From: Litorivivens lipolytica
Lineage (GTDB): Bacteria; Pseudomonadota; Gammaproteobacteria; Pseudomonadales; Spongiibacteraceae
Direction of reading: 5' to 3'
DNA: 64,000 nt
Assembly: GCF_014191715.1 (NCBI RefSeq)
Contig: NZ_JACHWY010000002.1
Location: forward strand, 372,001 to 436,000
Below the pieces are notes generated by a model. It worked only from the letters and a program-made list of their open reading frames with translations. It had not been told where the DNA came from and did not search any database. Each line of letters starts with the position of its first letter. Position 1 is the stretch's first letter. The translations under genes were made by a program, and so were the position numbers. Positions 11,708-64,000 of the stretch are shown here, piece after piece.

Positions 11708-11760
11708 GGGCGGCTTGCTTACACCAGAAAAACCTACCCTAGAAGAATGCAGGATACGCC

Positions 11761-12807
11761 ATGAGCACCCCGATTCGCCACGACTGGACCCACGCCGAAG
11801 TCAAAGCCCTGTTTGAGCTGCCCTTCAATGATCTGCTGTTCAAGGCGCAGACCGTTCACCGTGAATTTTTTGACCCGAATCAGGTACAAGTGAGCACTCT
11901 GCTTTCCATCAAAACCGGCGCCTGCCCGGAAGATTGCAAATACTGCCCTCAGAGCAATCGTTACGACACGGGCCTGGAGCAGGAAAAACTAATGGAAGTG
12001 GAAAAAGTGCTGGCCGAGGCCCGTGCCGCCAAGGCCACCGGTGCCAGCCGCTTCTGCATGGGCGCCGCTTGGCGCTCGCCCAAGAAGAAAGACATGCCCT
12101 ACGTGACCGCCATGGTGAAAGGCGTGAAGGAAATGGGGTTGGAAACCTGCATGACCCTCGGCATGCTCAGCGAAGAGCAGGCTGAAGAGCTGGCTGAGGC
12201 CGGCCTCGACTACTACAACCACAATCTGGACACCTCGCCCGAGTTTTACGGCGAGATTATTACCACCCGCACCTACCAGCATCGTCTGGATACCCTCTCC
12301 AATGTGCGCAAGGCCGGCCTGAAGGTCTGCAGCGGCGGCATCGTGGGTATGGGTGAAAGCGTCCGCGATCGCGCCGGTCTGTTGATTCAGCTGGCGAACC
12401 TGCCTGAGCACCCCGAGAGCGTGCCGATCAATATGCTGGTGCGCGTGGAAGGAACGCCGCTGGCTGAAGAGGCTGATCTCGACCCCTTCGATTTTATTCG
12501 CACCATCGCCGTGGCTCGTATCCTGATGCCTGCTTCTCACGTGCGTCTGTCGGCCGGTCGTGAGGAAATGAACGAACAGATGCATGCGCTGGCCTATTTC
12601 GCCGGTGCCAACTCGATTTTCTATGGTGAGAAGCTGCTGACCACGCCGAACCCCGAGGCCAACAAGGATCTCAAGCTGTTCGATCGCCTCGGCATCAAAC
12701 CGGAAGAGCGCGACGAGCAGTACTGCGAAGACGAGCAGGAAGCGGCGCTGCAGGCCAAGGTAGAGCAGGCGCGCAACGACCAGTTCTTTTACGACGCCAC
12801 CGCCTGA
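11761..12807 (+). CDS. bioB: Biotin synthase
   Basis: Radical-SAM enzyme that inserts sulfur into dethiobiotin, the last step of biotin synthesis. The 348 aa match the family. The radical-SAM cluster motif [11 protein letters not shown] has Cys55, Cys59 and Cys62. The second-cluster cysteines fall in [17 protein letters not shown] and [12 protein letters not shown], and the conserved RLSAGRE segment is present. First gene of bioB-F-HC-D under the BirA operator, with GCAGGA as ribosome site. Confidence 0.98.
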
Positions 12808-47499: not shown

Positions 47500-48615
47500 T
47501 CAGCGGAGCGAAGCCAGCTCTACCACCTCAGCCTGTGGGGTTTCCACCTCACCTTCTACCAGAAAGAAGCGCCAGAACATCAAACCCAGCACTCGCCCCT
47601 CGGTATCGATCCAATTCGGCAAGCCCGGATCTTCATGGGCGAGAATCATTTTAAAGCTGCCATCCGGCTCCAACTGGGTTTGCGCCCGGTTCAGCGATAC
47701 CGTGCGATTGCAGTAGTCATAGGTCTGCTGGTGGCGTGTCCACAAATCGAGGCTGCCAAAACGGCAGATGGGCCAGCGTCCGGTAATCACCAGCGCCTGA
47801 TGGGGCTCAAGGTAGTAGGGCGCCATTGAGTAATGCGCATCAAAGGCCGACAGACCGAAATCACCCGGCACCACCGGCTTGGGAAATTGATTGGGCGTCA
47901 ATGCCACGAACGCTGGTTGTTTCTCTACGTTTGCCATGGGCGGCATACCCAGCGTGCGGCTGCGTACAAACCCGGCAACGCGCTTTATGCCCTCAGCAAT
48001 GGACTGGTCGTTGGGAACGGCTGGCGCACGCTCGGGATTGATGGCGTCAATATACAGTGCCGGTTCTAACGCCGGGTCTCCCGCACCGCACTGTTTGTGT
48101 TCGAAGTAATGGCGCGTGGTGATACGGGAAGCTCCCTCGGGTAGCGGCAGCCAGTTGCGTTCGGCGGGCTCGCCGCCCAATCGCAGCTCGAACCAGCCGT
48201 TAGCATCGACATCAAATTGGGTGTCGTTAATGACACCGGCGGTCTTCGACGCCATACTGCCGTCTTCTGTACCCATTTCCACAGTAATCGAAACGTAGAC
48301 AGCCCCATTGATCTGACCACGCACCCGGTACTCATAATCGGCGCTAACCGGCGCATCAAAATAGATGGCGTCGCCATTGTCGCCGGTAAATTTGCGCCAG
48401 GGCGTCACAATGCGTCGGAACTGCGGGTAGGCCACATCGTTTTCAAACATGGTGGCCAGGCCGCCTTCAAGCACATGCATCAGCGAGCGATGCGCAGCCG
48501 CAACATCTTCGGGCGAGTGCAGGTTCCATTCCGGGCCGGCCCAGCGCTCGTCGATCTCTTCCAGTAGGTTAATCAAATCCCGCAGTGCCGAGCGGCTGGC
48601 AGTTTGCACAGTCAT
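47500..48615 (-). CDS. DUF1214 domain protein
   Basis: 371-aa cytoplasmic protein (no signal peptide). The N-terminal helical part is followed by a DUF1254/DUF1214-like beta region: DANGWFELRLGGEPAERNWLPLPEGA (~150) and the C-terminal SDCNR-type region YDYCNRTVSLNRAQTQLEPDG with GLPNWIDTEGRVLGLMFWRF. Function unknown; some relatives are annotated near lipid or steroid metabolism. AAGGAT stands 7 bases before the ATG. Palindromic half-sites lie just upstream (48642-48665). It converges on the EF-G gene. Confidence 0.75.
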   Translation of the reverse strand: MTVQTASRSALRDLINLLEEIDERWAGPEWNLHSPEDVAAAHRSLMHVLEGGLATMFENDVAYPQFRRIVTPWRKFTGDNGDAIYFDAPVSADYEYRVRGQINGAVYVSITVEMGTEDGSMASKTAGVINDTQFDVDANGWFELRLGGEPAERNWLPLPEGASRITTRHYFEHKQCGAGDPALEPALYIDAINPERAPAVPNDQSIAEGIKRVAGFVRSRTLGMPPMANVEKQPAFVALTPNQFPKPVVPGDFGLSAFDAHYSMAPYYLEPHQALVITGRWPICRFGSLDLWTRHQQTYDYCNRTVSLNRAQTQLEPDGSFKMILAHEDPGLPNWIDTEGRVLGLMFWRFFLVEGEVETPQAEVVELASLR

Positions 48616-48641
48616 TGCAAATATCCTTTTTGATTATGGTT

Positions 48642-48665
48642 GGTACAATTTACCGTATGGTATAC
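48642..48665. promoter_or_regulatory. Alternating half-sites upstream of the DUF1214 gene
   Basis: GGTA (48642), TACC (48651), GGTA (48659) and the palindrome GTATAC (48660-48665) form two overlapping dyads 27-50 bases before the DUF1214 start. Candidate site for a TetR-like repressor; none is encoded nearby. The rest of the 293-base gap to 48908 shows only a short AGGCC/GGCCT hairpin near 48827. Confidence 0.4.
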
Positions 48666-48908
48666 GCTTATTGGGCCTCGGGCGCAATACTTCAGCGAAA
48701 ATACGGATCTGTAGGCGGGAGAGTTCAATATCAGTCATCGCGCGGGCCCAACGCTAGCAGCCCCGCTGCGGCCTGTCGTCTGCCATTGTGGCAAATGCCG
48801 AGGAGAGGAATATACTCAAACAACGTAGGCCTGCTGCTGGCCTGCAATCAGTACCCGATTGCTTCAGCCTCGATAACCGATAAATGATGACGTTAATGGG
48901 TTGGTGAT

Positions 48909-50603
48909 ATGGAAAAAAGAAAAATAAAAGTCGGGTTATTGCTGGATACTTTCGAAGTGCCAGCGTGGGCAGCGAGACTGATCGAAAATATCGCTGCCAG
49001 TGATTTTGCTGAAATTACACTGGTCGTTCTAAATGACAACACAGAAGAAGTACCCGCACCTAACAAAGCACTTGTCAGCAAACTCATCAATAATCGCGAC
49101 CGCCTGGGATCGGTCGTCGTTAGAAAGCTGCTGGAAACAGCCTATTCAGCGCTAATTGAGCGCAATACCTACTTGCCCGATGCGAACCAGCCAATTAATT
49201 GCGAGTCCCTGATAAAGCATTGTCCCGTGATCAAGGCGAAAACACGTCGCACAACATGGTGCGACTATTTTTATGAGGATGACATCGAGGCAATAAGAAA
49301 CCTTGCCCCCGACCTGCTTTTCCGATGTGGATTCCGAATTCTGAAGGGCGACATCCTGAGCTGCGCCAAATACGGCGTCTGGTCATTTCATCATGGCGAC
49401 AACCTGACCAATCGGGGCGGGCCTGCGGGCTTTTGGGAATCCATGGAAAGCTGGCCGGAGACAGGCTCGATTCTGCAAATACTGACAGAAGATATCGATA
49501 ACGGTGCAGTTTTGTACCGATCGCACTCGTGCACCAACACAATGTCGGTGCACGACAACGTCAACAATTACTACTGGAAATCCCTGTCGTTTATGCAGCG
49601 TAAGATACGCGAGCTCTATGACAGGGGAGAAAGCGAGTTTTTTTCAGACGTTGCCTTTAATAACAGACACCCGGTCTTCTACTCGGAACGCCTGTACAGA
49701 CGCCCGACAAACCGCGAGCTCGCAAGACTGACTGTCAATAAAATCATCGAAAAAACAAAGCTCTTATATACAAACGCCTTCTTTCTCGATCAATGGATAC
49801 TGCTGTTTCACCTGAAAAATGAATTCTCATCCTCACTGTGGCGCTACCAAAAAATCATTCCCCCGAAAGACCGCTTCTGGGCTGACCCGCACGTGATCAG
49901 GAGGCATAACAAATATTACATTTTCATCGAAGAGTACCTTTATTCAACGCAAAAGGGGCATATCGCGGTCATGGAGATGGATGATGACGGATGCTACAGC
50001 GAGCCCGCCCCCATCCTTGAAGCTCCCTATCACCTCTCCTATCCCTTTGTTTTTGAGCACCACAATGAGCTTTACATGATTCCCGAGTCCGCCGAGAACA
50101 GAACCATCGAGCTCTACAAATGTGTTGAATTCCCTAGCAAGTGGGAATTCCAGATGAACCTAATGGAAGATGTTGAAGCCGTAGATACCACTATTTATTT
50201 CCAGAACAACAGATTCTGGATGTTTACCAACTTGGCTGAGAATGTCGGTGCGTCGACCTGGGATGAACTGTTTCTATTTTACTCAAACACCTTTCCTTCC
50301 AGAAACTGGACACCCCACCCGCAGAATCCGGTTGTCTCTGACTGCAAGTCAGCTCGGCCCGCTGGAAAGCTATTTCTTGAGAATGGCCGGTTGTACCGGC
50401 CGTCCCAGAACTGCTCACACCACTACGGTTACGGCTTCAATCTCAACGAGATAACCAGGCTCGACGACAAGGCTTATGCAGAAAATGTCGTCTCGCGGGT
50501 TAAACCTCATTGGGATCAACAAATTCGGGGTTGCCACACTTTTAACCGCGAACACTCACTGCACATCATCGATGCCATCTACAGGCGCCGAAAATACCTT
50601 TAA
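48909..50603 (+). CDS. Formyltransferase-like / GINT1-like fusion in polysaccharide locus
   Basis: 564-aa protein. Residues ~1-240 resemble formyltransferases (PDLLFRCGFRIL, then VWSFHHGDNLTNRGGPAGFWE with the catalytic-like His, and EDIDNGAVLYRS with the Asp). Residues ~290-564 resemble the GINT1 N-terminal/five-bladed propeller-like domain (FWADPHVIRRHNKYYIFIEEY, YPFVFEHHNELYMIPES, RPAGKLFLENGRLYRPSQNCS). A role in N-formylating or otherwise modifying an aminosugar of the polysaccharide fits the locus, but this is inference. First gene of the locus; composition is more A+T rich than upstream. Confidence 0.65.
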   Translation: MEKRKIKVGLLLDTFEVPAWAARLIENIAASDFAEITLVVLNDNTEEVPAPNKALVSKLINNRDRLGSVVVRKLLETAYSALIERNTYLPDANQPINCESLIKHCPVIKAKTRRTTWCDYFYEDDIEAIRNLAPDLLFRCGFRILKGDILSCAKYGVWSFHHGDNLTNRGGPAGFWESMESWPETGSILQILTEDIDNGAVLYRSHSCTNTMSVHDNVNNYYWKSLSFMQRKIRELYDRGESEFFSDVAFNNRHPVFYSERLYRRPTNRELARLTVNKIIEKTKLLYTNAFFLDQWILLFHLKNEFSSSLWRYQKIIPPKDRFWADPHVIRRHNKYYIFIEEYLYSTQKGHIAVMEMDDDGCYSEPAPILEAPYHLSYPFVFEHHNELYMIPESAENRTIELYKCVEFPSKWEFQMNLMEDVEAVDTTIYFQNNRFWMFTNLAENVGASTWDELFLFYSNTFPSRNWTPHPQNPVVSDCKSARPAGKLFLENGRLYRPSQNCSHHYGYGFNLNEITRLDDKAYAENVVSRVKPHWDQQIRGCHTFNREHSLHIIDAIYRRRKYL

Positions 50604-50776
50604 CGCTTCCTCAACACCAGCGATCACCACAATTCAGGTTTTTACCAGCAACAATTAGTATTTTTCCCTGTCGAGTCCCGCCGGGCAGGGTCCTACCATG
50701 GTGGAAAATCAGTCTCTTACTTTAAAGAGCGACAGGCAGCGCAGGTTTTTCGCGAGCCACGCAGGAAAAGCCATAC

Positions 50777-52735
50777 GTGAAATACAGAGCTGAGGTAGAC
50801 GGACTCCGGGCTTTGGCGGTTGTCCCGGTTATACTATTCCACGCTGGCTTTGAGCCTTTCAGCGGCGGCTATGTCGGTGTCGACGTCTTTTTCGTTATCA
50901 GTGGTTACCTCATTACCACTATCCTGATTGACGATATAGAAAACAACCGCTTTAGCGTTATCAATTTCTATGAGAGACGCGCTAGAAGGATCGTTCCGGC
51001 GCTCGCCTTTGTCATGCTGTGCTGCGTACCCTTTGCTTGGATGTGGATGCTGCCTCACCAGCTCAAGGACTTTTCCCAAAGCTTTATAGCCGTCACCTTA
51101 TTCTCGTCGAACGTTCTGTTTTGGTTGGAAAGCGACTATTTCGATGCCGCATCCGAAGAAAAACCACTGTTGCATACTTGGAGCTTGGCGGTTGAGGAGC
51201 AGTACTACGTCCTATTCCCTATCTTCCTGTTTTTATGCTGGAAAACAGGAAAGAACCGCACCTTTTGGATAATCGTTGTCATCGCCGCCATGAGCTTTCT
51301 GCTCAGCGAGTGGAGTTCCCGAAACCATCCCGCCGCTAATTTCTACCTTGCTCCGACCAGAGCCTGGGAGCTTTTTGCCGGATCCATCACAGCCTTTATT
51401 GCGCAAAGGCACGGCGTACGGACTAACAACCTACTCTCCAGTATCGGGATGGCGGCCATCGTCACCGCTATCTTTGCCTACGATCATACAACACCGTTCC
51501 CGGGTGTCTACGCGCTGCTACCGGTTCTTGGTACGGTATTGGTGATACTGTTCGCGACCCGGCACACCCTGGTCGGGGCCGTTCTCAACATTCGCATCGT
51601 GGTCGGAATCGGCTTGATAAGTTACAGCGCCTATCTCTGGCATCAGCCGCTTCTTGCATTTGCACGAATCAGATCCATCGAGCTACCAAGCCAAACTCTG
51701 ATGACAGTGTTAGCTGCGCTGTCACTGGTTCTCGCGTCGTTCAGCTACCGCTATGTTGAACAGCCTTTTAGAAACAAACGCACTTGCTCCCGCTCCTTCA
51801 TTTTTTCCTCGTCAGCTGCAGTGGCCGTGCTATGCCTTGGGCTGGGCGCAAGCGGATATTTTACCAAGGGACTACCCACGCGATTCCAGCAGGAGCTTTT
51901 TGTTAATTGGGAAGACACCGACCGCTGTACCAAACAGGGGGTCAGATCCGAGACCGAGCTCGCAGAGATCACCGGCGACTGCTTTCCCTCAACAGTTGAC
52001 AAAAAATACATTTTGATCGGCGACTCACATGCAGAAACTGTGAGCAAGCCCCTGCGTAGAGTGATCGAGGCGAATAACGGCGCGCTCATTACCTTGATCG
52101 ATAAAGGTTGCCTGCCCATCCCCGGCACATCAAGATACCCGATCCAGAAAAACTGCATCTTTGCCAAAGACTTGTTCTGGCGAATCGCAAACCAGACCGA
52201 CGCGACCGTCATTTTGTCGGCGCGCTGGCGCCTCTATTTCGAAGGCACCCGCTACAACAACGGCGAGGGCGGCGTCGAATACGGCGACAACTGGGCGAAC
52301 TACGTTTTCGACAACACGGCGCGGGATATCTACCAGTACACGCGCGACGAACTGATTGATCTCGCCCTGAAAAACCCCGTAGTTATCCTGTCACAGATAC
52401 CCGAAACCGGCTGGAAAGTTCCGGAAGTGGTAGCCAAGTACCGCAAATACAGAAATGAGAACAGTGTTACCGTGAGCACCAGCTATGAGATTTACCTTGA
52501 AAAAAACAGACAGGTCAATCGCTGGCTCAGAGAATTAGAATCCCATGAGACGATTTCAGTATTGCGCACCGAAGATATCGTGTGTGACTTCAGTACAATG
52601 CGCTGCGCCAACGCCAGAAACGGAGTATCCCTTTACCGGGACAACAACCATCCAAGTCCACGATACGCGGCGATGATTGCGCAGAAATTCAAGGATTTGT
52701 ATCTTCATAAGAATAGCGCCGTTGACACGCTATAG
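50777..52735 (+). CDS. OafA/YrhL-type O-acyltransferase with SGNH domain
   Basis: 652-aa membrane acyltransferase. The acyltransferase-3 domain (~1-340) has YRAEVDGLRALAVVPVILFHAGF, the FFVISGYLITT motif and WSLAVEEQYYVLFP, with about ten helices. A C-terminal periplasmic SGNH domain (~380-650) has block I IGDSHAET and block V NNHPSPRY, with the Asp and His of the triad. Such proteins O-acetylate surface polysaccharide. GTG start with AGGAAAAG upstream. Confidence 0.9.
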   Translation: MKYRAEVDGLRALAVVPVILFHAGFEPFSGGYVGVDVFFVISGYLITTILIDDIENNRFSVINFYERRARRIVPALAFVMLCCVPFAWMWMLPHQLKDFSQSFIAVTLFSSNVLFWLESDYFDAASEEKPLLHTWSLAVEEQYYVLFPIFLFLCWKTGKNRTFWIIVVIAAMSFLLSEWSSRNHPAANFYLAPTRAWELFAGSITAFIAQRHGVRTNNLLSSIGMAAIVTAIFAYDHTTPFPGVYALLPVLGTVLVILFATRHTLVGAVLNIRIVVGIGLISYSAYLWHQPLLAFARIRSIELPSQTLMTVLAALSLVLASFSYRYVEQPFRNKRTCSRSFIFSSSAAVAVLCLGLGASGYFTKGLPTRFQQELFVNWEDTDRCTKQGVRSETELAEITGDCFPSTVDKKYILIGDSHAETVSKPLRRVIEANNGALITLIDKGCLPIPGTSRYPIQKNCIFAKDLFWRIANQTDATVILSARWRLYFEGTRYNNGEGGVEYGDNWANYVFDNTARDIYQYTRDELIDLALKNPVVILSQIPETGWKVPEVVAKYRKYRNENSVTVSTSYEIYLEKNRQVNRWLRELESHETISVLRTEDIVCDFSTMRCANARNGVSLYRDNNHPSPRYAAMIAQKFKDLYLHKNSAVDTL

Positions 52736-53048
52736 TGTGACGCGCTTTGAACCAGCCTGTCTTTCCTGACGAACAGATTCCGCTGACCCCCCACCCGATA
52801 ACACAGCCCGACGAAGGTGTATCAGGGAATTACCTAGGCAGCTTTCAGGCTTTCCCCTGATCGCGACAACTCGGTATGTAACTTATTCTCTAAATCTCGG
52901 GGGGAATCGGTTAACTACTAACCAGGAAGATTTCCAGAAAGCGCCGCCACGCAAGGACGCGACAACAGACAATACCAAGGCGCAGAGCACAAACCCAAAC
53001 CCAAACCATAGACTAGCCGAAGCCAAAAATGGCCGAAGGGGCGAAGCT
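52736..53048 (+). promoter_or_regulatory. Leader region upstream of the antiterminator gene
   Basis: A 313-base non-coding stretch. It contains a long-range hairpin ATCAGGG (52821-52827) / CCCTGAT (52855-52861) and a short hairpin GGTTA-ACTAC-TAACC (52909-52923), preceded by GGGGGG. No ops or JUMPstart consensus is visible. It probably holds the promoter of the export operon and may be a loading site for the NusG-like protein; no -35/-10 pair is convincing. Confidence 0.4.
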
Positions 53049-53642
53049 TTGCCGGTAACTAATCATCGAGACAGCAACTTCTACTTGGACGACAGCAAAA
53101 CTGCACTTTCTGAACTGGGTGAAAACGAAGCTGCTTGGCACGTCGTCTGGACCCGCAGCAACTGTGAGCACTTGGTGTCCGACCTGCTGGAAGCAAAAGG
53201 CTACGAGGTCTTCCTTCCACTCATTGAAGAATGGCGAATGCCAACCAAAACCAATTCCGGTCGGCCTGTAGGGCTGGCATCCAACCCCATGTTCAAGGGC
53301 TACCTTTTCGTCAAACACTGCATAGACAGAGAGGCGTTTTTGGATATTTCCAACACCAGAGGCGTTGCCCACCTGCTGGGTTCTCGCTGGAATGCCTTGG
53401 CGCGCGTGCCCGAGGAGGAAATACAGTCCATAAAATGCCTGATGAACAGCCAACTGCCGCTAATGCCACACCCCTACCTTGAAAAAGGTGACAAAGTGTT
53501 GATTACCCGCGGAATGCTTGCCAACACCAACGGCATTTTAACTGAGAAATCCAATGAAAAAGGAATTTTCGTTGTCTCCATCTCGTTGCTCAAAAGTAGT
53601 GTTGCTGTCAGTGTTGACTACAACGATTTGATACCCGTATGA
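53049..53642 (+). CDS. NusG/RfaH-like transcription antiterminator
   Basis: 197-aa NusG-family paralogue. NGN domain from ~27 (AAWHVVWTRSNCEHLVSDLLEAKGYEVFLP) with the core NPMFKGYLFVK (~80), and a C-terminal KOW-like part (EKGDKVLITRGMLANTNGIL). Such paralogues switch on long polysaccharide operons. TTG start, set by AGGGG 7 bases upstream and the absence of any in-frame ATG or GTG near by. The stop overlaps the next ATG (ATGA). It probably acts on its own operon. Confidence 0.85.
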   Translation: MPVTNHRDSNFYLDDSKTALSELGENEAAWHVVWTRSNCEHLVSDLLEAKGYEVFLPLIEEWRMPTKTNSGRPVGLASNPMFKGYLFVKHCIDREAFLDISNTRGVAHLLGSRWNALARVPEEEIQSIKCLMNSQLPLMPHPYLEKGDKVLITRGMLANTNGILTEKSNEKGIFVVSISLLKSSVAVSVDYNDLIPV

Positions 53643-54826
53643 CGCTGACAAAGAAGACAAAATCGTCCTCGGCAACGCGTCGCGCAGGTATCGCAATGGT
53701 GCTCGCAGCAATAGACCTACCTATGCTCGCTTGGGCTGACGGAGGCTACTATCTTGAACCCTCCCTGTCTGTCTACACGATCTACGACGACAATATCTTC
53801 TATACATTTACTGACGAGGAATCCTCGCACATTGCGCGTTATAGCCCCTCCTTGGGTTTGGGTTATGAGCAGTCAATACTGAACTGGAATGTCGTCTACC
53901 GTATCGATTTGGAAGATTATATAGATAACGACAACATCAGTGACGGCGTTATAAGGCGGTTCGCCGACACGTCTCTGCATTATCAACCAATCCCCCGGTT
54001 AATATTGAGCGGCGACGTCAGGTATACCAAGACAGATACACCTGCCGATTTGACGCTAGTGCCTGGCGGATCGGTGAGAGGTTCCCTGCAGGAGCGGACC
54101 AATGTCAAGCGAATCTCCTTCAACCCTTCGGTGACCTACCGACTTTCACCTACGGCCACTGGAATCCTGTCCTACATCCGCACCGAAGATAGCATCTCCA
54201 GCCTGCTTGAGACCGATATCCGGCGCATGGCAATCGAAATGCAGCATGCAATCACATCCAAAACGTCTATCTTGTACGGCTACTTTGAACGCGAGGTTCG
54301 CTACGATGAATCTCCATCTTCCTCGAGTAGTGCGGACAATGCATCGAGCGAAAGTTCTGGTACTACCTGGGTCGGCCTCTCACGTGATTTGACACCGACT
54401 ATCGTCGCGAGCGTGCGCGGCGGGAGCAGATCCGCGAATGGTAGAAGCAGCCCCTACTGGACGCTTAGCATTGAGAAAGACTATCGCCGGGGAGAAGCCG
54501 TGCTAGCTTTTGAGCGTAATGAAACTACCGCCCCCGGAACTACCGACAGTCAGGAATTTGAGACTGTAAATGCAACGATTGTGCATAAGTATGGATTGAA
54601 CTGGGTCACCACGATCACACCGAGTTACGCGAAAATCACTCAGCGTTCGGGATCGCAGAAAATCTACCGTCTGGCGATAAGTTCTAACTACCGGTTTAAC
54701 GAGTTCTGGTCACTGACCGCGTCCTACGAACGCAATCACCAGCCTATTGAATTCTCGGAAGCCGATGACGAATCCATTGATCGAAATGTCGCGCTTATTG
54801 GCATCACTTACATTTATCCGAAGTGA
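53639..54826 (+). CDS. Outer-membrane beta-barrel protein of the polysaccharide locus
   Basis: 395-aa protein with a weak signal peptide (~1-33, ending LAWADGG) and an alternating beta-strand pattern to the C-terminus. It resembles the outer-membrane beta-barrel proteins found in exosortase/PEP-CTERM-type polysaccharide loci (TIGR03016-like). Repeated YDDNIFYT and LxxSxxxRY strands and a Ser-rich external loop (SPSSSSSADNASSESSG) are visible. Likely takes part in polymer passage through the outer membrane. Coupled to the antiterminator gene by ATGA overlap. Confidence 0.7.
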   Translation: MTLTKKTKSSSATRRAGIAMVLAAIDLPMLAWADGGYYLEPSLSVYTIYDDNIFYTFTDEESSHIARYSPSLGLGYEQSILNWNVVYRIDLEDYIDNDNISDGVIRRFADTSLHYQPIPRLILSGDVRYTKTDTPADLTLVPGGSVRGSLQERTNVKRISFNPSVTYRLSPTATGILSYIRTEDSISSLLETDIRRMAIEMQHAITSKTSILYGYFEREVRYDESPSSSSSADNASSESSGTTWVGLSRDLTPTIVASVRGGSRSANGRSSPYWTLSIEKDYRRGEAVLAFERNETTAPGTTDSQEFETVNATIVHKYGLNWVTTITPSYAKITQRSGSQKIYRLAISSNYRFNEFWSLTASYERNHQPIEFSEADDESIDRNVALIGITYIYPK

Positions 54827-54896
54827 GCATAACGTGCGTAGCTTGATATCGTGAAAAGTCGAGCTGATCTCACGCACGCCGAATTGGAAGATGCAA

Positions 54897-55517
54897 ATGC
54901 CTTCGTTTCGCGGGGCTGCCATGAAAATTAATACTGTATCGATAGCGCTCATTATTCTAGCTATCGCGTTCTCGGGTTGCTCGACCACAAACACCACTAA
55001 GGCCTCAAGTAACAACCAAGCCATAGCCGACCGTTATCACATCGGTGCCTCTGACGTGCTGACAATAAACGTTTGGAACCGTTCCAATCTTGATCGCAGT
55101 GTCACAGTCAGGCCGGACGGGAAGATATCCTTTCCTCTGGTCGGTGATATCTACGTCGCCGGCCTGCAACCGACGGAGCTCCAATTAGCTCTGGAGGAAG
55201 CGCTACGTAAATACATGAAAGTTATTCCCGGGGAGGTTTCCGTCACCGTGGACGAAGTCCATAGCTATAAGGTGTCGGTTCTCGGTGAAGTACGTGCGCC
55301 CGGGCGATTCGAGTTCCAAACTCAGGTGTCGATTCTGGAAGCACTCGCGCAGGCCGGCGGTCTGACTGAATTTGCGACCCGCGACCGGATTCTGATTATA
55401 CGAAACTATCTGGGAAACAAAGAGGATATTGTCTTCGATTACCAGAAGGCGGCAAAGCTAAGGGGAGGCAGCGATCCCTTAATGCTGCTGCCGGGCGACG
55501 TGGTACTTGTGCCCTGA
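54897..55517 (+). CDS. Wza-like polysaccharide export lipoprotein
   Basis: About 206 aa. Lipobox AFSGC near residue 28; Poly_export domain (YHIGASDVLTINVW...VRPDGKISFPLVGDI) and one SLBB domain (VLGEVRAPGRFEF...SILEALAQAGGLT). Forms the outer-membrane/periplasmic export channel with the chain-length protein encoded next. Short, without Wza's extra SLBB domain, as in single-SLBB export proteins. Start chosen at 54897, where GGAAG stands 6 bases upstream; ATGs at 54891 and 54921 are alternatives. Confidence 0.92.
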   Translation: MPSFRGAAMKINTVSIALIILAIAFSGCSTTNTTKASSNNQAIADRYHIGASDVLTINVWNRSNLDRSVTVRPDGKISFPLVGDIYVAGLQPTELQLALEEALRKYMKVIPGEVSVTVDEVHSYKVSVLGEVRAPGRFEFQTQVSILEALAQAGGLTEFATRDRILIIRNYLGNKEDIVFDYQKAAKLRGGSDPLMLLPGDVVLVP

Positions 55518-55571
55518 AAGACCGATTAGGCACTGGTTCGGCACTAGCGATAATTTGACTGAGACTCGATC

Positions 55572-57080
55572 ATGACCGCGAACGAAGACTCGCTTTTTGA
55601 AACACTGCTAGATCAATGGAAGCGGCAGAAGTGTCTTATTGCAGCTGTATTCATCCTTATTGTGTCTGTTTTTGGGAGTTTGATAGTGACCCTGCCGTCA
55701 TTGTATCGCTCTTCTACGACCATTCTGTTTGGTGAAGGAAATATCGCAACATCGATGGTGAAGAGCGGGGCGGGCAATGAACTCGAAATGCGACTTGGCG
55801 TTATTCAGCAAGCAGTATTGAGCCGGTCTCAGCTGCAGGAAATCATTACTAAGTTTGACCTGTACTCTCCATGGCGAGGAAAGGCCTCACCAGAGCTGCT
55901 AATCGAGCGCATGAGAAAGGATATAAAAATACAGAAAAGAACCTCTACCCAACCGCAGTGGGGCCAGAACTCTACCTATGCCATCACTATAACCTACCAG
56001 GGCTGGGACGCTGACGTCGTCGCGGCAGTAACCAATGATCTCGCCGACAGATTCCGATCCGAAAACGAGCGTATCCGCATCAGTCAGGCATCAAACACTG
56101 CAGCGTTTATTCGCCAGGAACTCGAAGCCGCCAGAAACGAATTTATCAACCAGGAACTGCGAATAAACGCCTTTAGAAATGATCATATTGGCAAGCTTCC
56201 CGAGCAGCAGCAAATGAACTTGGCGACGCTGGAACGACTGAATGCAGACCTTAGGCTGAACCGAGAGCGGCAATTGCAGATGCTGAAAGAGCGCTCGGTA
56301 CTGGTAGCAAGCGATTCAAGCAGTGTCGATATCTCTGGACCATTGAGGCTTCAGAAACTCAAGGCCGAGCTTGCCAACCTGCGAACCAGCTACAAGGAGA
56401 CCTACCCCGGTATACTTCGGCTTAAAAATGAGATTCATTCTCTGAGTATCGAACTCGGTATTGATCCAGATGCGAGTTATATTGACAAGAACGAAGCCAA
56501 CGCCATCGATAAGACCGACCTCGAGCTTAACACCTTGCGTCAGGAAGAGCGTAGGCTCAACGACACCATACAAGCCACGATGCGCCGGATAGAGAGCGCT
56601 CCGAAGATCGATCAGCAACTCAAGCAGTTCGCCTACGACTACGAAATAGCCAAAGAACGCTATCTGTCTTTGCAAAAGAAACACCAGGAGGCCCAGTTGG
56701 CTGAATCGCTGGAGGCTGAGCAGAACCAGCAAATACGAGTTGTAGACGCAGCGATTCCAGCTGCATTCCCCGCCGCACCCAACAAGGCAGCACTGTTACT
56801 TATAACTTTGATTGTAGGCCTTGCAGTCGCGGGAAACGCCGCATTTATGTCAGATCAGGCTGATCGAAGCTTCCACTCGACTGCCTCGATCCGTCAGTTT
56901 ACGAATGTTCCGCTGCTGGCGAGTATTAATACGATCCCGGCACGAGTCGATCATATCGAAGCGTCGGCCCGCAATTCGGTAGCTGCAGTGAGCTTTCTAG
57001 CTGTGGTCGTAATACTGTCGGTCGTAGCTTACGAGGCCGGGAAAGGGGCACAAAATCTCGTCTGGATACTGGCTGGTTAG
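55572..57080 (+). CDS. Wzz/GumC-like polysaccharide chain-length and export protein
   Basis: 502-aa inner-membrane polysaccharide co-polymerase. Transmembrane helix ~17-40, a large periplasmic part with long coiled coils (~160-400, e.g. LEAARNEFINQELRINAFRN and the GNVR-like KIDQQLKQFAYDYEIAKERY), a helix ~410-430 and an extra hydrophobic segment at the C-terminus (~475-495). Links the Wza-like channel to synthesis and, with the ATPase encoded next, sets chain length. Sits 54 bases after the Wza-like gene. Confidence 0.9.
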   Translation: MTANEDSLFETLLDQWKRQKCLIAAVFILIVSVFGSLIVTLPSLYRSSTTILFGEGNIATSMVKSGAGNELEMRLGVIQQAVLSRSQLQEIITKFDLYSPWRGKASPELLIERMRKDIKIQKRTSTQPQWGQNSTYAITITYQGWDADVVAAVTNDLADRFRSENERIRISQASNTAAFIRQELEAARNEFINQELRINAFRNDHIGKLPEQQQMNLATLERLNADLRLNRERQLQMLKERSVLVASDSSSVDISGPLRLQKLKAELANLRTSYKETYPGILRLKNEIHSLSIELGIDPDASYIDKNEANAIDKTDLELNTLRQEERRLNDTIQATMRRIESAPKIDQQLKQFAYDYEIAKERYLSLQKKHQEAQLAESLEAEQNQQIRVVDAAIPAAFPAAPNKAALLLITLIVGLAVAGNAAFMSDQADRSFHSTASIRQFTNVPLLASINTIPARVDHIEASARNSVAAVSFLAVVVILSVVAYEAGKGAQNLVWILAG

Positions 57081-57141
57081 CCTGCTTTTGATTAGAGCGG
57101 AGAGACACAACCTCCGTGTCCAATGACTCTAGCTTGCCCTT

Positions 57142-57906
57142 ATGGGCCAGATAATTTTGGAACCTACTATGACCCCAGTACAGTATTTGGAAGGGAAACT
57201 AAAAACTGCGCGAGAGTTTAGCGAGTTAGAAAGCCTCGTACCTAGTTGTGAGTCACCTCAGATTGATCCACGTTTGGTCTGTCTATTGCGACCCAACTCT
57301 GAGTTATCTGAAACCTATTCTCGCCTTCGTTTAGCGCTGGAGAATAGCTTCACAGAACAGGAGGGTGCGGTACTGGGCATAACCAGCGCCTCAGCCCATG
57401 ACGGTAAAACTCTTACGGCAATCAACGTTGCCAGCGCTCTCGCCAGTGGGCCTGACAATCGCGTGCTATTGGTAGATTTGGTGCTAAGGCCTGCCTCCAG
57501 ACGGGTGGCCGATTACCTCAACTTCAACAACAATGACGCATCCGGCATAACCGAATGGCTGGATAACTCGGAACTCTCGTATGTTGAGCCCCAGCTTCGT
57601 TACCTCAGGCCATACAATCTGCATATTTTGACCGCGGGGAAAGCTGCTAAGGCGCCTTATGAAGTCCTTAAATCAAAACGGCTGATGCGATTTTTCGAAA
57701 CTGCCCGTAAACGCTTTGACTTTATCATCGTAGACACCCCAAAGGTCCTCAACCTACCCGATACGGAGTTGATATCTCGGCTGCTGGATAAGTTTGTTCT
57801 GGTGGTCCGCGCGAATAAAACCAAACGCCGGGAGCTTGAAGAGACTTTGAGTCTGATGTCACCGGACAAAGTTGCCGGGCTAGTATTCAACGACAACGGC
57901 CGATAG
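57142..57906 (+). CDS. CpsD/CapB-like tyrosine-kinase-type ATPase (atypical)
   Basis: 254-aa soluble BY-kinase-like ATPase, the cytoplasmic partner of the chain-length protein. Walker A SASAHDGKTLTA (~82), Walker B IIVDTPKV (~196). Walker A' reads VDLVLRPAS, so the second Asp of the usual DxDxR is Val. The C-terminus ends FNDNGR without a tyrosine cluster. Autophosphorylation on a Tyr tail is therefore not expected; it may act as an ATPase switch only. Start could also be the ATG at 57169. Confidence 0.85.
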   Translation: MGQIILEPTMTPVQYLEGKLKTAREFSELESLVPSCESPQIDPRLVCLLRPNSELSETYSRLRLALENSFTEQEGAVLGITSASAHDGKTLTAINVASALASGPDNRVLLVDLVLRPASRRVADYLNFNNNDASGITEWLDNSELSYVEPQLRYLRPYNLHILTAGKAAKAPYEVLKSKRLMRFFETARKRFDFIIVDTPKVLNLPDTELISRLLDKFVLVVRANKTKRRELEETLSLMSPDKVAGLVFNDNGR

Positions 57907-57977
57907 CAGATAAAAGCGACCTACCGATAACGCCCAATGATCAAGCCTCAGATTTACTGTAACGGATACCAATAGTT

Positions 57978-59123
57978 ATGCTTTCACGTCGACCAGCCCG
58001 GCGTACCCTGTTGATTGGTTCGGGCTCATTAATGGAAAGGCTGCTCACCGAAAGCAAAATTTTACAGGGTGAGCAGTATGCTATCACTGGCGCCGTGGCT
58101 AGCAAGCAAGGCGTAGCTGAATGGCAAGGCTTGCCAATCGTCGGCACGATATATGATCTCCCTGCTATCGCAAAGCAGCATACACCCGATGTAATAATTG
58201 TAGGTGACGTTTTGGATGTCGGGCGCGACGGGCATAAATCCCGCGAAAGGTTCAATCATTTCCTGCTTGAAGCAAAACTGTTTCACAATGTCCACATAGA
58301 ATCGGTGGCGAGTGTCTATGAGCGTCTGACCGGAAAACTCCCGATCGAAGCCTATGCACCCGAGGACATTCTGAGGGGGCCTGACTACCACGATCACCAC
58401 ATCTCCGATTTCATCGAACGCCTAGTGAGCAGCGTAGCCTCCGGTCTTGCACTGCTGCTGCTGTTTCCGTTTCTACTGATACTCGGTGTTCTGGTCAGAC
58501 TGGACTCCGATGGCCCTGCGCTCTTCGTACAGGAAAGAGTAGGGCTAAATGGCAGGCGTTTTAAACTTTTCAAGTTCAGGACCATGAGGCCGTCAATCGC
58601 TGAACATACCGAATGGGCCCGCGACAATTGCGAACGTATCACGGCCCTTGGAGGATGGCTAAGACGTTTTCGGCTGGATGAGCTTCCACAGTTCATCAAT
58701 GTTCTGCGGGGCGATATGAACCTGGTTGGCCCTCGCCCACACCCGGCATCAAACTTTGAACTGTTCGCGCTTACATCGAGAAATACGCCGGAGTCCGGAA
58801 GCGAAATACCTTTCTACCAGCTTCGCTGCTCAGTCAGGCCGGGTATCACCGGCTGGGCGCAGGTCCGGTACCGCTACGCCAACAACCTCGACGAAGAAAT
58901 AGAAAAGCTGCGCTACGACCTCTACTACATCCGTCACCGCTCGGTGTACTTAAACATTCGGATACTGTTTGCCACCATCGCTACCATCATCAAAGGACAT
59001 GGTGTCGCAGGCAAACCAGTTGCTACGCCATCCTACAAAAGCAACAGCAACGATAACGGTTTCGCCGCTCATTCTGAATCTGGCACAAACAACACTGACT
59101 CGACCTCCAAGGCAGTTTCCTAA
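57978..59123 (+). CDS. Undecaprenyl-phosphate sugar-1-phosphate transferase (WcaJ-like)
   Basis: 381-aa initiating glycosyltransferase that loads the first sugar-1-phosphate on undecaprenyl phosphate at the inner membrane. A Rossmann-like CoA-binding region (~8-125; LLIGSGSLMERLL), one membrane helix (~150-172) and the bacterial sugar-transferase domain: KLFKFRTMRPS, LRRFRLDELPQFINVLRGDM, LVGPRPH and RPGITGWAQVRYRY. Lacks the four N-terminal helices of full WcaJ. Ser/Asn-rich C-terminal tail. Sugar not predictable. Confidence 0.92.
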   Translation: MLSRRPARRTLLIGSGSLMERLLTESKILQGEQYAITGAVASKQGVAEWQGLPIVGTIYDLPAIAKQHTPDVIIVGDVLDVGRDGHKSRERFNHFLLEAKLFHNVHIESVASVYERLTGKLPIEAYAPEDILRGPDYHDHHISDFIERLVSSVASGLALLLLFPFLLILGVLVRLDSDGPALFVQERVGLNGRRFKLFKFRTMRPSIAEHTEWARDNCERITALGGWLRRFRLDELPQFINVLRGDMNLVGPRPHPASNFELFALTSRNTPESGSEIPFYQLRCSVRPGITGWAQVRYRYANNLDEEIEKLRYDLYYIRHRSVYLNIRILFATIATIIKGHGVAGKPVATPSYKSNSNDNGFAAHSESGTNNTDSTSKAVS

Positions 59124-59138
59124 CAAAGGATCTTTGTC

Positions 59139-60488
59139 ATGAACGAAATCGCACAAACATCGCCGCTCACTGGCGAATTCACCTACGTTGACTTGCTCGA
59201 AAAAATCCAACTAAAAGAAGCAGCTGTCTCTGTGGTCGGACAGGGCTACGTTGGTCTTCCGCTCGCTGTGGCATTTGCACAATCCGGATTCCAGGTTAAC
59301 GGGCTCGATATCGACGCTGAACGCGTGAGCCGTCTCCGGCAGTGCGACGCGAACAGCCCTGACATCGAAGATAGTGAACTGGCGCGGCTGAGTACCTCCG
59401 GGCACTATAAGCCCTCCGGGGATTTTTCCCTTCTGTGCGAAAGCGACGTAATCTTAATCTGTGTACCAACACCGCTAAGAAAGTCCAAAGACCCGGATAT
59501 ATCCTACGTCATCGACGTCGCAGAAACCCTTGCGATAACTCTGTCTCCCGGAAAATTGATCATTCTGGAATCGACAACCTACCCTGGCACAACGGAGGAG
59601 GTACTGCTGCCACTGTTCGAAGACAAGGGGCTGGTGTGCGGCAGGGACTTCTTTCTGGCGTTCTCACCGGAAAGGATAGATCCGGGTAACAAGCAGTACA
59701 GTGTAAGCGAAATACCCAAGGTTACGGGTGGTGTAACCAAACAGTGTACAACTTTGGCTGCAGCCCTCTACCGGCAGATTGTCGACCATGTCGTAGAGGT
59801 ATCATCACCCAAGGTAGCGGAATTAGCGAAGCTCTATGAGAACGTATTCCGAAGTGTAAATATTGCTCTCGCCAATGAGTTTTCAATCATGTGCCGGGAG
59901 CTCAACATCTGCTCTCGGGAGGTAATTGATGCGGCCGCCAGCAAGCCCTTTGGCTTCATGCCCTTCTATCCCGGTCCCGGCATCGGCGGGCATTGCATTC
60001 CAGTCGACCCGGCTTATCTTGCTTGGAAAATGCGCTTCAGCAACTACCAGGCCAGGTTTATCCCACTGGCAGAGGAAATCAATCAATCCATGCCGGGGCA
60101 CGTCGTAAAGCTTGTCAACGAGTCCCTGAACAGGCGCAAGCGCTGCGTAAACGGTGCCCGCATACTCGCTCTGGGCGTCGCTTACAAAGCAGGTGTCGGC
60201 GATATACGCGAATCCCCTGCACTGGGAATACTCAATACACTGATTTGTAGCGGCGCCGAAATTTCGTATATCGACCCCTATGTGCCCTCTATTGATATTG
60301 CCGGAATCCATTTTTTGTCGTCGAATCTCACTAGCGATCTGCTGGAGAAAACCGATTGCATACTCATACTCACTGACCATCCGAGCTTCGACTACACGAC
60401 AATACTGGATTCCGGAAAGCTGGTGGTTGATACCCGCGATGCAACCTGGGGCTATCGGGCAGATGCTGGGCAGGTGGTGCGTTTGTGA
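59139..60488 (+). CDS. UDP-sugar 6-dehydrogenase (WbpA/WecC-type nucleotide-sugar dehydrogenase)
   Basis: 449-aa NAD-dependent dehydrogenase that turns a UDP-hexosamine into the uronic acid, giving the polymer negative charge. GQGYVGLPLAVAFAQSG (~38), the central PSIDPGN-type stretch (FSPERIDPGN), and the catalytic Cys in GIGGHCIPVDPAYL (~285); C-terminal UDP-binding domain with ALGVAYKAGVGDIRESPA. The motif set matches UDP-GlcNAc/ManNAc dehydrogenases better than UDP-glucose dehydrogenases. Stop overlaps the next GTG. Confidence 0.92.
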   Translation: MNEIAQTSPLTGEFTYVDLLEKIQLKEAAVSVVGQGYVGLPLAVAFAQSGFQVNGLDIDAERVSRLRQCDANSPDIEDSELARLSTSGHYKPSGDFSLLCESDVILICVPTPLRKSKDPDISYVIDVAETLAITLSPGKLIILESTTYPGTTEEVLLPLFEDKGLVCGRDFFLAFSPERIDPGNKQYSVSEIPKVTGGVTKQCTTLAAALYRQIVDHVVEVSSPKVAELAKLYENVFRSVNIALANEFSIMCRELNICSREVIDAAASKPFGFMPFYPGPGIGGHCIPVDPAYLAWKMRFSNYQARFIPLAEEINQSMPGHVVKLVNESLNRRKRCVNGARILALGVAYKAGVGDIRESPALGILNTLICSGAEISYIDPYVPSIDIAGIHFLSSNLTSDLLEKTDCILILTDHPSFDYTTILDSGKLVVDTRDATWGYRADAGQVVRL

Positions 60489-61792
60489 CTGCTTTACCAC
60501 AGACACCATGGTGGCGGGACGATGCCCCAGAGGTTTTGGACAAGACACTGGTGGCCTGCAATCTCCGTTCAGCGCCGGGATCGCCAGTGGCCTTCTGGGC
60601 GCTTATCGCGTTTGCCTTTGTGCTGCTGCTTGCACCGCAAAACTATATCCCGGCGCTGGCGCCCCTGCGCATCGCGCTGCTGGCTGCGGCCGTTTCCATC
60701 GCCGCTCATATACTAAACCGACTTAAGGCCAAACGCCCCATCATTGAACTGGAACCCGCGATTGTTACGCTGTTCTACTTTCTTTGCTGGACAATTCTGA
60801 CAATCCCGTTCTCCCAATGGCCCGGCGGTAGTGTCGCCTTCCTGATGGAGCTCTACCTAAAGACGGTGATCGTCTTTATCCTGCTAACTCAGGTACTCGA
60901 TACGCCGGATCGACTTATGCGCCTGACCTCCGCTCTAGTCCTTATGGCTATTCCAATGGCAGGCACCACGGTGTCTAACTTTATGGCAGGTGCTTACGCG
61001 GTCGACGGCAATCGTGTGGCGGGTTACTTAGCAGGCCTTACCGAAAATCCGAACGACATGGCACTGATGCTGAATCTGCTTTTGCCGCTGGCAATTGCAC
61101 TCGCAATAGACGCTGACAAAAGGCTGCCGAAGCTAATTTACTTTGCGGTTTCGGTGCTTATCGTACTCGGTGTTATCTCAACTTTCTCTAGAGGAGGCTT
61201 TCTTACCCTCATCACGATCGGCCTGTGCTATGGCTGGTCCATGAAGAAATACCTGAGTCAGTTTTTGCTGCCGGTAATCGTCATTTTCGGCATCGGCGGA
61301 GCTTCGCTACTACCCGATGACTATATAAACCGCATTTCGACGATTACCAGTATTGAAAGCGACGAAACAGGTTCCGCGCAGGTTAGGCTGCACGATATGA
61401 AGAGCGCGATGAAGCACGCCATTACCCACCCCTTGATAGGATCGGGTGTCGGCATGAACGAGCTGACCATGAATGACATCAGAGGAGAAACCTGGACAGA
61501 AATCCACAACGTCTACTTGCAGATTTTGCTGGAGCTCGGTGCGCCGGGTCTGATCCTTTACCTTATGTTGCTCAAGAGAGCCTTCGGCGCCACACGATGC
61601 GCCACTACGGAGGGTCAACCGCACCCGCTGGCGCCACTTAAGCGGGGCTTGCGCATCAGCCTGATCGCATTCTGTGTCGCCGCGCTATTTCATCCGGTTG
61701 CCTACCACTTCTACTTCTACATAATCGCCGGAATAGCATTCGCCGCAGGACGAATTTCGACAACCGCCGCTTTCGGTGCCGACAATGTTTGA
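60485..61792 (+). CDS. Wzy-like O-antigen/polysaccharide polymerase (O-antigen ligase family)
   Basis: 435-aa integral membrane protein with about eleven helices. O-antigen-ligase-type central motif VAGYLAGLTENPNDMALML (~178) and the periplasmic loop with HPLIGSGVGMNEL and EIHNVYLQILLELGAPG (~335). Likely polymerises lipid-linked repeat units. GTG start overlapping the dehydrogenase stop (GTGA); overlaps the glycosyltransferase gene by 17 bases. Confidence 0.88.
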   Translation: MTALPQTPWWRDDAPEVLDKTLVACNLRSAPGSPVAFWALIAFAFVLLLAPQNYIPALAPLRIALLAAAVSIAAHILNRLKAKRPIIELEPAIVTLFYFLCWTILTIPFSQWPGGSVAFLMELYLKTVIVFILLTQVLDTPDRLMRLTSALVLMAIPMAGTTVSNFMAGAYAVDGNRVAGYLAGLTENPNDMALMLNLLLPLAIALAIDADKRLPKLIYFAVSVLIVLGVISTFSRGGFLTLITIGLCYGWSMKKYLSQFLLPVIVIFGIGGASLLPDDYINRISTITSIESDETGSAQVRLHDMKSAMKHAITHPLIGSGVGMNELTMNDIRGETWTEIHNVYLQILLELGAPGLILYLMLLKRAFGATRCATTEGQPHPLAPLKRGLRISLIAFCVAALFHPVAYHFYFYIIAGIAFAAGRISTTAAFGADNV

Positions 61793-62987
61793 CACTGCGT
61801 CTCGCGGAATCTACACCCGGAAGGTACTCAAAGTCTTGCCCAACTACTGCAAGGGCGGTACCGAAGGACAAGTGCTCAATCTGATCGCCAATCTGGACAA
61901 TCAGTTGTTTGATATCAGTTCAGCTTGTTTTAGCCGAAGCGGAAATATACTGAGTGAGTTTGAGAGTCTCGTTAGCAGTATAACGGAGTACCCGATTAAC
62001 AAGCTCTACCACCCTTTAACACTGCTGAAGCAGCTTCATTTCGCCGCGGATATTCGTAAACAGCAGTATCAAATTGTGCATAGCTACAACTTCTACGCTA
62101 ACTGTTTCTCTATCCCGGCGGCCAAGCTGGCAGGCGTACCCGTTGTCATTGCATCAATCCGCGATCAGGGGGTCTACCTCAGCCCGGCCAAAAAACGCGT
62201 GCAGAAGGTGATATGTAATCTCGCCGATCGGATACTCGTAAATGCGGATTCAATTCGAAGCTGGCTGCTGGAAGAAGGCTATAGCGAGCCCAAAATCACG
62301 GTGATCAAAAACGGCATCGATCTGTCGCTCTACGATTCAAATATGGCTAATCAGAGCATACGAGAAGAGTTCTCAATTCCGCAGGACGCCCCGCTCATCG
62401 TCATGCTCGCGCGCCTTAACCCTCAGAAAGGCTTTGACGACCTTATTGCCGCCGCGGAAAAGCTCAAGCAACGTCATCCGACGGCGTGTTATATGATCGT
62501 CGGTGCAAACAAGATATTAATTGGCGATCAGTACGTCGATGACCAGACCTATCTGAATCAGCTTAAGTCAATGACCGCTAAAGCGGGCGTAGATCACGCC
62601 TTTATCTTTACCGGACATCGACAGGACACCGCAGCAATACTTGCGGCCGCAGATATATCGGTACTGCCATCGCACAGTGAGGGGTTGTCAAATTCAATTC
62701 TCGAATCTATGGCTGCCGGAACGCCAGTAGTTGCAACTCGCGTTGGAGGAACCCCTGAACTCATCCAGCATGGCGCAAATGGATTGCTGATACCGGTAAA
62801 ATCGCCGGACTTACTTGCTCAAGCGCTCGATACCCTGATAACGGATTCTGCTCTCAGACAAGCACTAGGCGCAAAGGGCCGGTGTACCGCCGAGAGGGAA
62901 TATTCCATCGAAAAGACCGCTCGCGATACCAGCGTACTGTATCTATCGGAGTTAGACAGGGCGTGCCCCTCGCTGGCTCGGCTCTAG
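61776..62987 (+). CDS. Glycosyltransferase family 4
   Basis: 403-aa GT-B glycosyltransferase. N-terminal acceptor domain with LPNYCKGGTEGQVLNLI; C-terminal nucleotide-sugar domain with VIKNGIDLSLYD (~180), ARLNPQKGFDDLI (~205) and the EX7E-type HSEGLSNSILESMAAGTPVVATRVGGTPEL (~300). Extends the repeat unit; the donor sugar is not predictable. GTG start at 61776 or ATG at 61785, both inside the end of the polymerase gene. Confidence 0.92.
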   Translation: MPTMFDTASRGIYTRKVLKVLPNYCKGGTEGQVLNLIANLDNQLFDISSACFSRSGNILSEFESLVSSITEYPINKLYHPLTLLKQLHFAADIRKQQYQIVHSYNFYANCFSIPAAKLAGVPVVIASIRDQGVYLSPAKKRVQKVICNLADRILVNADSIRSWLLEEGYSEPKITVIKNGIDLSLYDSNMANQSIREEFSIPQDAPLIVMLARLNPQKGFDDLIAAAEKLKQRHPTACYMIVGANKILIGDQYVDDQTYLNQLKSMTAKAGVDHAFIFTGHRQDTAAILAAADISVLPSHSEGLSNSILESMAAGTPVVATRVGGTPELIQHGANGLLIPVKSPDLLAQALDTLITDSALRQALGAKGRCTAEREYSIEKTARDTSVLYLSELDRACPSLARL

Positions 62988-62997
62988 ACGATCACGT

Positions 62998-64000
62998 ATG
63001 GTTAATAGCGCCTTCGAACTAGGACCGCACGCACCAATACCGGACGCTCGAGAGCTAACGAATCCTGTATTCTCGACCGAGCTGATCGACGGTAAGGCAC
63101 TGCTGAAGCGCTATGCTTCCCAGTTACAAGAGCTCATCAGCAATGCAATAGAGCCTAATATTTGCTACGAGCCGTGGTTTATGGCATCAGCGATCAAGTA
63201 TCTAGGTGAAGAAAGCTGCCCCGTGTTTATCGCCATTTCGATAACCTCCCCAGAAAAAGACAATACGCTGCTGTGTGGACTAATTCCGATATGCTTCAAA
63301 AAGCGCTATCGTGGGGTTCCTGTCCGAACGATCACCCTGTGGCAGCACGACCACTGCTTTAATGCTACTCCTGTAATACATCTGGATTTCGCCAGACAAT
63401 GCGCCGACCAAGTCCTGCGCTGGTTTAAACGTGATTGTTCGGCATCGGTCATGGCGTTTAATCTGATCTCCGCCAGGAACACTTTCATTGAAAGCTTTAT
63501 CGATCATCTTTGCAGCTCGCCGTTGCGTAGCCGATGCTGGTACTACGATCGAGGCTGCGCCATTAAAGCCCGACAGCGAAACGCGTCCTGCATCAACCAA
63601 TTATCGAAGAAGACACTCAGCGAAGATCGCCGTCGCTTAAAGCGTCTGTCGGAACTAGGCAAAACAAGCTGGACTCAGTATGAGAGCAATGACGATATAG
63701 AGCAGTGGATTGTGGAGTTCATTTTTCTTGAATCCTCGGGCTGGAAGGGAGAAAGCAATACGGCAATTGCCTCGTCCAGAAAGGACGATAACTTTTTCAG
63801 AGCGATCATGCACGCAGCCCATCGTGAAAATAGGTTGAGAATTCTTGCGCTAAGATTGGATGGTAAAGCGATCGCAATAATTATAGTGTTTGTTTCCCAC
63901 CGGATCGCACATACCTATAAAGTCGCCTTCGACGAGGACTATCGACAGTGCGCACCGGGAGTGATGGCCAATATTGAGCTGCTTCGTCGAGCGGATAAGT
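62998..64000 (+). CDS. CelD/BcsL-like GNAT (FemAB-fold) protein, cut by the right edge
   Basis: Open frame of at least 334 codons starting ATG GTT AAT AGC 10 bases after the glycosyltransferase stop; no stop before the window end. The N-terminal half contains FEPN/CYEPWFMASAIKYL; the second half has the Acetyltransf_6 signature LSEDRRRLKRLSELG, then FIFLESSGWKGES and VAFDEDYRQCAPGVM, as in CelD/BcsL and FemAB-like proteins of exopolysaccharide loci. Probably acylates the polysaccharide or a precursor. Product incomplete, so length and exact subfamily are open. Confidence 0.8.
   Translation, partial: MVNSAFELGPHAPIPDARELTNPVFSTELIDGKALLKRYASQLQELISNAIEPNICYEPWFMASAIKYLGEESCPVFIAISITSPEKDNTLLCGLIPICFKKRYRGVPVRTITLWQHDHCFNATPVIHLDFARQCADQVLRWFKRDCSASVMAFNLISARNTFIESFIDHLCSSPLRSRCWYYDRGCAIKARQRNASCINQLSKKTLSEDRRRLKRLSELGKTSWTQYESNDDIEQWIVEFIFLESSGWKGESNTAIASSRKDDNFFRAIMHAAHRENRLRILALRLDGKAIAIIIVFVSHRIAHTYKVAFDEDYRQCAPGVMANIELLRRADK

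Follow-up and report, generated by a model that had tools for sequence, protein, structure and literature searches.

A formyltransferase-fold domain whose active site is altered, fused to a GINT1_N propeller, in a Litorivivens lipolytica protein and its relatives

Analysing a 64 000-nucleotide stretch of a Litorivivens lipolytica contig (hereafter the window), we saw that a gene close to an exopolysaccharide cluster codes for a protein of two parts: first a formyltransferase-like domain whose active site is altered and, behind it, a propeller resembling those of sugar enzymes (Table 1). The protein is a member of the GINT1_N family and a formyltransferase-fold protein; its domain composition, its fold, the altered motif and the spread of the fusion are computationally established. 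Its probable task is to modify an amino sugar during the assembly of a surface glycan; the cofactor, the acceptor, what the propeller does and the sharing of one substrate by both halves are what we infer. As the most likely reaction, though chosen tentatively, we consider N-formylation, dependent on 10-formyl-tetrahydrofolate (10-formyl-THF), of an amino sugar on a propeller-held glycan. The GINT1_N propeller would recognise or process a saccharide containing an amino sugar, probably lipid-linked; the N-domain would then move formyl from 10-formyl-THF to the free sugar amine, with His161 and Asp197 catalysing as in ArnA and GART, while Ser159, His162 and Asp164 would reshape the site where other enzymes have Asn.

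Table 1. Features of the fusion gene and its neighbourhood (window coordinates)
Feature	Position	Strand	Basis
Whole fusion gene	48909..50603	+	ORF list, 564 aa, ATG start; relatives full-length at 48-62% identity, 4 loci
N-terminal formyltransferase-fold domain, residues 1-284	48909..49760	+	FMT/ArnA profile matches; predicted model
GFRILKGDIL, residues 141-150, at the folate-binding-loop position of GART/ArnA	49329..49358	+	Alignment
Altered catalytic motif S159-F-H161-H162-G-D164...R169-G...W176-E177	49383..49439	+	10-member alignment
Asp197, the superfamily's conserved catalytic Asp	49497..49499	+	Asp in 11/11 HH-type rows
GINT1_N domain, residues 322-552, GH43/GH32-like propeller	49872..50564	+	Pfam PF24793; Foldseek
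AT3 acyltransferase with SGNH domain, second likely glycan-modifying gene	50777..52735	+	PF01757, PF19040
Exopolysaccharide cluster	53049..62987	+	Pfam families; NCBIfam XrtA-type models below cut-offs

Both domains had been named in an earlier note on this DNA, and both assignments were correct (GINT1_N at E-value 3.8e-43; a predicted formyltransferase fold); the sequence quoted there, FHHGDNLTNRGG, is present in the ORF product. At E ≤ 1 the window protein gives no formyltransferase match in Pfam, missing the gathering score of Formyl_trans_N, and its N-domain searched alone against Pfam hits none of the families; six of the 10 members of alignment A2 match Formyl_trans_N at E ≤ 1 (best 4.8e-4). 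The window protein itself matches ArnA in NCBIfam (E-value 2e-4) and FMT in PDB (1.4e-3), and a 10-member profile of the N-domain reaches FMT 4iqf at 2.4e-9 and ArnA 6pih at 3.7e-5. Structure prediction and comparison, proposed earlier as a check, gave the same fold: for a model of residues 1-284 built from six sequences (pLDDT 69.9, pTM 0.68), the best VIA-align match was E. coli FMT 1fmt (Z 13.6, 190 residues, rmsd 4.6), all 50 VIA rows listed belong to the formyltransferase superfamily, and structures of this superfamily rank first in Foldseek as well (best E-value 3.7e-7). From the N-domain of the full-length model (pLDDT 57.5) Foldseek found ArnA.

The claim that the His and Asp pattern is kept in an altered context was borne out: His161 and Asp197 are retained, and the catalytic Asn is Ser159, so that two-thirds of the canonical N-x-H...D set is present. 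Loss of this set in the modelled active site, together with the lack of a cofactor pocket, had been named as the finding that would speak against the formyltransferase reading; of the set, the Asn is lost in the whole clade, but the His and Asp remain. Among 18 S-x-H-type members (the window protein, 11 HH-type rows and six standalone haloarchaeal relatives) position 159 is occupied by Ser 17 times, by Ala once (the phage-borne L100) and by Asn never, whereas Asn of N-x-H is present in 34 of 35 canonical formyltransferases from the same searches (this count leaves aside a 36th row, L055, which represents a decayed fusion). The S, H, H, D, R, G, P, W and E of the motif are invariant in 10 members (bacteria and one archaeon), and its residues do not vary in relatives from Bacteroidota, Bdellovibrionota, Pseudomonadota and Halobacteria; the second His is variable in standalone proteins (Phe in L194, Arg in L118). 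A DNA pattern for the motif was found in four of 299 genomes, its reversed control in 0 of 299. Judged by sequence, the S-x-H proteins form a distinct clade, and the conservation of the motif exceeds chance.

The ArnA N-terminal domain and sugar N-formyltransferases (WbkC etc.) have the fold, the catalytic His and Asp and the RG motif in common with the window protein, and likely the folate loop too. The corresponding loop of GART/ArnA is folate-binding; I144, G147, I149 and L150 of its counterpart are invariant in 10 members, and the strand about this counterpart is kept in different phyla. The modelled loops 162-218, which bear on the geometry of a folate pocket, have pLDDT mostly under 50. 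Unlike those enzymes, the window protein belongs to a clade with Ser or Ala for Asn, has HGDN in place of the LLP loop and is fused to a GINT1_N propeller, the ArnA formyltransferase being fused to a dehydrogenase instead. A full N-H-D enzyme is ruled out, Asn being replaced by Ser or Ala throughout the clade. Nor do we classify the fusion protein as a sugar N-formyltransferase, because it lacks the Asn and falls short of the Pfam threshold.

Because a Ser stands in place of the formyl-orienting Asn, one could propose that the N-domain does other one-carbon or acyl chemistry, e.g. that it hydrolyses formyl groups or transfers them to a hydroxyl. We regard this as unlikely: Ser or Ala at this position in 18 of 18 members agrees with it, as do deformylases and the hydrolase domains of 10-formyl-THF dehydrogenase, standing at similar Z in the fold list, but direct sign of another reaction was not found in the data examined, and deacetylases adjoining the standalone relatives point to amine chemistry.

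These standalone S-x-H proteins, from haloarchaea and from locus L090, share the motif and the formyltransferase family with the window protein and, unlike it, are without a propeller. They reach Pfam Formyl_trans_N (L116 at E-value 2.8e-10, L090 at 1.9e-13). In two of the seven loci (L090, L116, L118, L120, L121, L194 and L197) a polysaccharide deacetylase gene directly adjoins the S-x-H gene: in Natronorubrum (L116) the two overlap by 4 bases and in L090 they are 4 bases apart. In L120 the deacetylase lies ∼4.5 kb away, and in the other four loci the probes found no deacetylase. A canonical N-x-H formyltransferase of Haloarcula halobia is coupled to a deacetylase likewise. Since deacetylases adjoin two standalone S-x-H genes, deacetylation followed by formylation is the order that suggests itself. 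Deacetylases directly beside formyltransferase genes were seen at L116:5640-7543 and L090:7741-9424 (S-x-H) and at L195:4883-6507 (canonical N-x-H). Beside fusion genes outside the host cluster, a deacetylase was found in 0 of 20 sampled loci and in none of the other fusion loci probed. The deacetylase of the host cluster is weak evidence, because such genes may belong to the usual equipment of XrtA-type clusters.

The C-terminal half matches PF24793 with 148.1 bits against a cut-off of 27, over profile positions 58-288 of 304. Its earlier description as propeller-like agrees with the Foldseek matches to GH43, GH32 and GH117 propellers, obtained from the C-domain of the full-length model; the best, 6ms3 of the five-bladed GH43 propellers, has E-value 4e-8, with low TM-scores at the model's pLDDT of 57.5, so that the likeness in fold to these glycosidases is one seen at low model confidence. 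By this fold the protein could be a glycosyltransferase or glycoside hydrolase working through the propeller, with the N-domain binding a nucleotide sugar, a reading we hold to be very improbable. D326, E341, E393 and D426 (window-protein numbering) are indeed invariant in alignment A3 and in the 20 domains of A4, but Pfam GH43 gives no match in the window protein and relatives match it under the cut-off (0.00048-0.011). Mapping of the GH43 Asp-Asp-Glu triad failed also, the hhalign profile alignment being out of blade register with no triad matched, and a GT64 domain gave no Pfam match at E ≤ 1 in the window protein. Plant GINT1, after which PF24793 is named, shares the GINT1_N domain; in the window protein this domain forms the C-terminal half, fused behind a formyltransferase fold, and the GT64 domain of the plant enzyme is absent. 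In the part of the literature consulted, plant GINT is assigned to GT64; its predicted reaction is the transfer of GlcNAc to GlcA-IPC, and a subsequent deacetylation has been proposed (PMC9113257).

GINT1_N was detected in 38 of the 299 phylum-sample genomes and in 11 of the 274 class-sample genomes (controls 0/14 in both). The phylum-sample search gave 41 places, of which 30 had loci that were read, and 11 without a locus were left out; we took entries duplicating the window or L001 out of the relative set. Among the nearest 38 genomes the only fusion gene is the window's own. A fusion unique to this protein is ruled out, since 42 of 49 GINT1_N proteins are fused to an N-terminal region: 11 with the motif (the window protein included) and 31 without it, the remaining seven being standalone; these counts include near-copies (e.g. 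L030/L032/L033) and are not counts of independent events.

The fused domain, therefore, can persist without the motif, and the N-domain may be a former formyltransferase serving for binding or scaffolding, while the propeller does the work by aiding a separate glycosyltransferase in HexNAc addition; the retained His and Asp would then be remnants or ligand-binding residues. To this reading we assign a real chance, below that of N-formylation. Besides the 31 of 42 fused proteins without the motif and the loss of Asn throughout the S-x-H clade, it has in its favour that seven of the 49 propellers stand alone, one of them genetically tied to HexNAc addition, and that the motif-less N-domains are still homologous to the intact ones. 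In profile comparisons the motif-less group degB scored a probability of 99.8 against intact domains and 87.6 against canonical formyltransferases; group degS scored 94-95 against degB and 0.5 against canonical ones, being linked through degB only, and controls (glycosyltransferase, SDR, GH43) scored 0 to 1.6. L059, read stop-to-stop with its N-terminal part partly out of the gene, was excluded. On the tree of GINT1 domains the intact label needs five changes, at least two of them forced by supported branches (the tree has no established root, and some of its branches are weakly supported), and repeated loss of the motif would be the simplest reading. The motif state is nevertheless clustered on this tree, and in the intact clade the site keeps its His, Asp, Arg, Gly, Trp and Glu unchanged from phylum to phylum, whereas an idle scaffold would need none of them. 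Such strong conservation in the intact clade, set against the 31 fused relatives that have lost the motif, makes a selected function of the motif there likely. N-formylation remains our first choice because the kept His and Asp, the conserved site and the deacetylase-linked relatives narrowly outweigh the lost Asn. If it is right, an easily measured sugar is predicted in exopolysaccharides; if it is wrong, we are dealing with an enzyme fold that has repeatedly lost its catalytic motif while fused to a glycan domain.

The exopolysaccharide cluster codes for a NusG-like regulator, a barrel protein, an export protein, a chain-length protein, a kinase, a sugar-phosphate transferase, a UDP-sugar dehydrogenase, a Wzy_C protein and a GT4; past the window it adds glycosyltransferases, GNAT/FemAB-like proteins, a flippase, two amidotransferases, a heparinase-like protein and a polysaccharide deacetylase. 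Eight of 20 sampled fusion loci had a glycosyltransferase-type neighbour and 12 had none, and no such neighbour was found in any of 18 control stretches (Fisher P = 0.0026). Three of the 20 loci were counted although the overlap filter did not recover their fusion ORF; 20 control stretches had been sought, of which two did not exist, and one of those used spanned just 2.9 kb. Among other loci the same probes found such a neighbour in six of 13. In three of the closest relatives (L001/L096, L002 and L003) these probes detected no glycosyltransferase or flippase nearby; at L004 a flippase seen by Pfam was missed by the probes. The suggestion of an undescribed sugar modification in polymer assembly had been drawn from the pairing of the two domains. 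We find such a modification plausible because of the exopolysaccharide context and the deacetylase neighbours of standalone relatives, both of which fit; the pairing, however, is widespread and not peculiar to the polymer of this cluster. AT3-type acyltransferase genes lie near formyltransferase-like genes at L090:1967-3868, at L092:4890-5819 and in the window. At L097:10942-13016 we saw a gene for an E1-type thiamine dehydrogenase (10942-11964, Pfam E1_dh) with another ORF behind it; an intact fusion gene lies nearby, as do genes for a nucleotidyltransferase and an NDP-sugar dehydratase-like protein.

A standalone GINT1_N protein of 296 aa (E-value 7e-34) was found in Acinetobacter baumannii at L058:12004-12894 (CP040041.1), in the ilvE-aspS outer-core locus, which also has a polysaccharide deacetylase. 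This finding gives a family to the gene orf1/ghy (2898 in ATCC 17978); like the window protein it combines GINT1_N with a glycan locus containing a deacetylase, and unlike it stands alone, without an N-domain. We equated 2898 with the GINT1_N family by locus position and by the former name ghy/orf1, as given in the relevant portion of the source (PMC4172580), and not by sequence. The sections concerned with 2898 report that its deletion led to loss of outer-core HexNAc, leave its role open and describe it as conserved even where the outer core is without HexNAc (PMC10936431). In the account of the renaming of ghy to orf1, the best match outside the genus is a 'putative formyl transferase' in Nitrosoarchaeum (PMC4172580). 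One could speculate, with considerable doubt, that the S-x-H clade partners with a supplier of free amine (a deacetylase if standalone, the propeller if fused), that the fusion, within a single polypeptide, turns an N-acetyl-hexosamine in a lipid-linked glycan into its N-formyl form and that the lone propeller is the cryptic outer-core HexNAc factor of A. baumannii. The analysis links a large, uncharacterised fusion family of bacteria and archaea, a formyltransferase clade without the elsewhere almost universal Asn and a published A. baumannii core-oligosaccharide gene. In the open-access literature searched, no paper was found on a GINT transferase together with a formyltransferase, on GINT1 together with a beta-propeller, or on PF24793, GINT1_N or the NCBI protein name.

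The GC content of the locus is ∼51%, compared with ∼56% to its left, and identity is 60-61% to a relative in Bdellovibrionota and 48-49% in Bacteroidota; this composition and these identities together suggest that the fusion gene may have been transferred horizontally. In the window at 48001-64000, GC falls from ∼56 to ∼51% where the exopolysaccharide region starts, and GC skew is negative from ∼44 kb, which suggests an acquired island.

Scanning of viral sequences with alignment A2 gave one phage contig, with a full-length fusion member beside tail-collar and virion-structural genes; a scan with the protein of that contig returned only itself, and scans with alignment A3, the L099 protein and the motif pattern returned no relatives. 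Phage records contained a single weak match, unannotated. On the phage or prophage contig IMGVR_UViG_3300044718_000027 (L103:2575-4278) the full-length fusion gene has Ala instead of Ser159 and lies on the strand opposite to the tail-collar gene, with a virion structural gene nearby; it is possibly a phage-borne glycan-modification gene.
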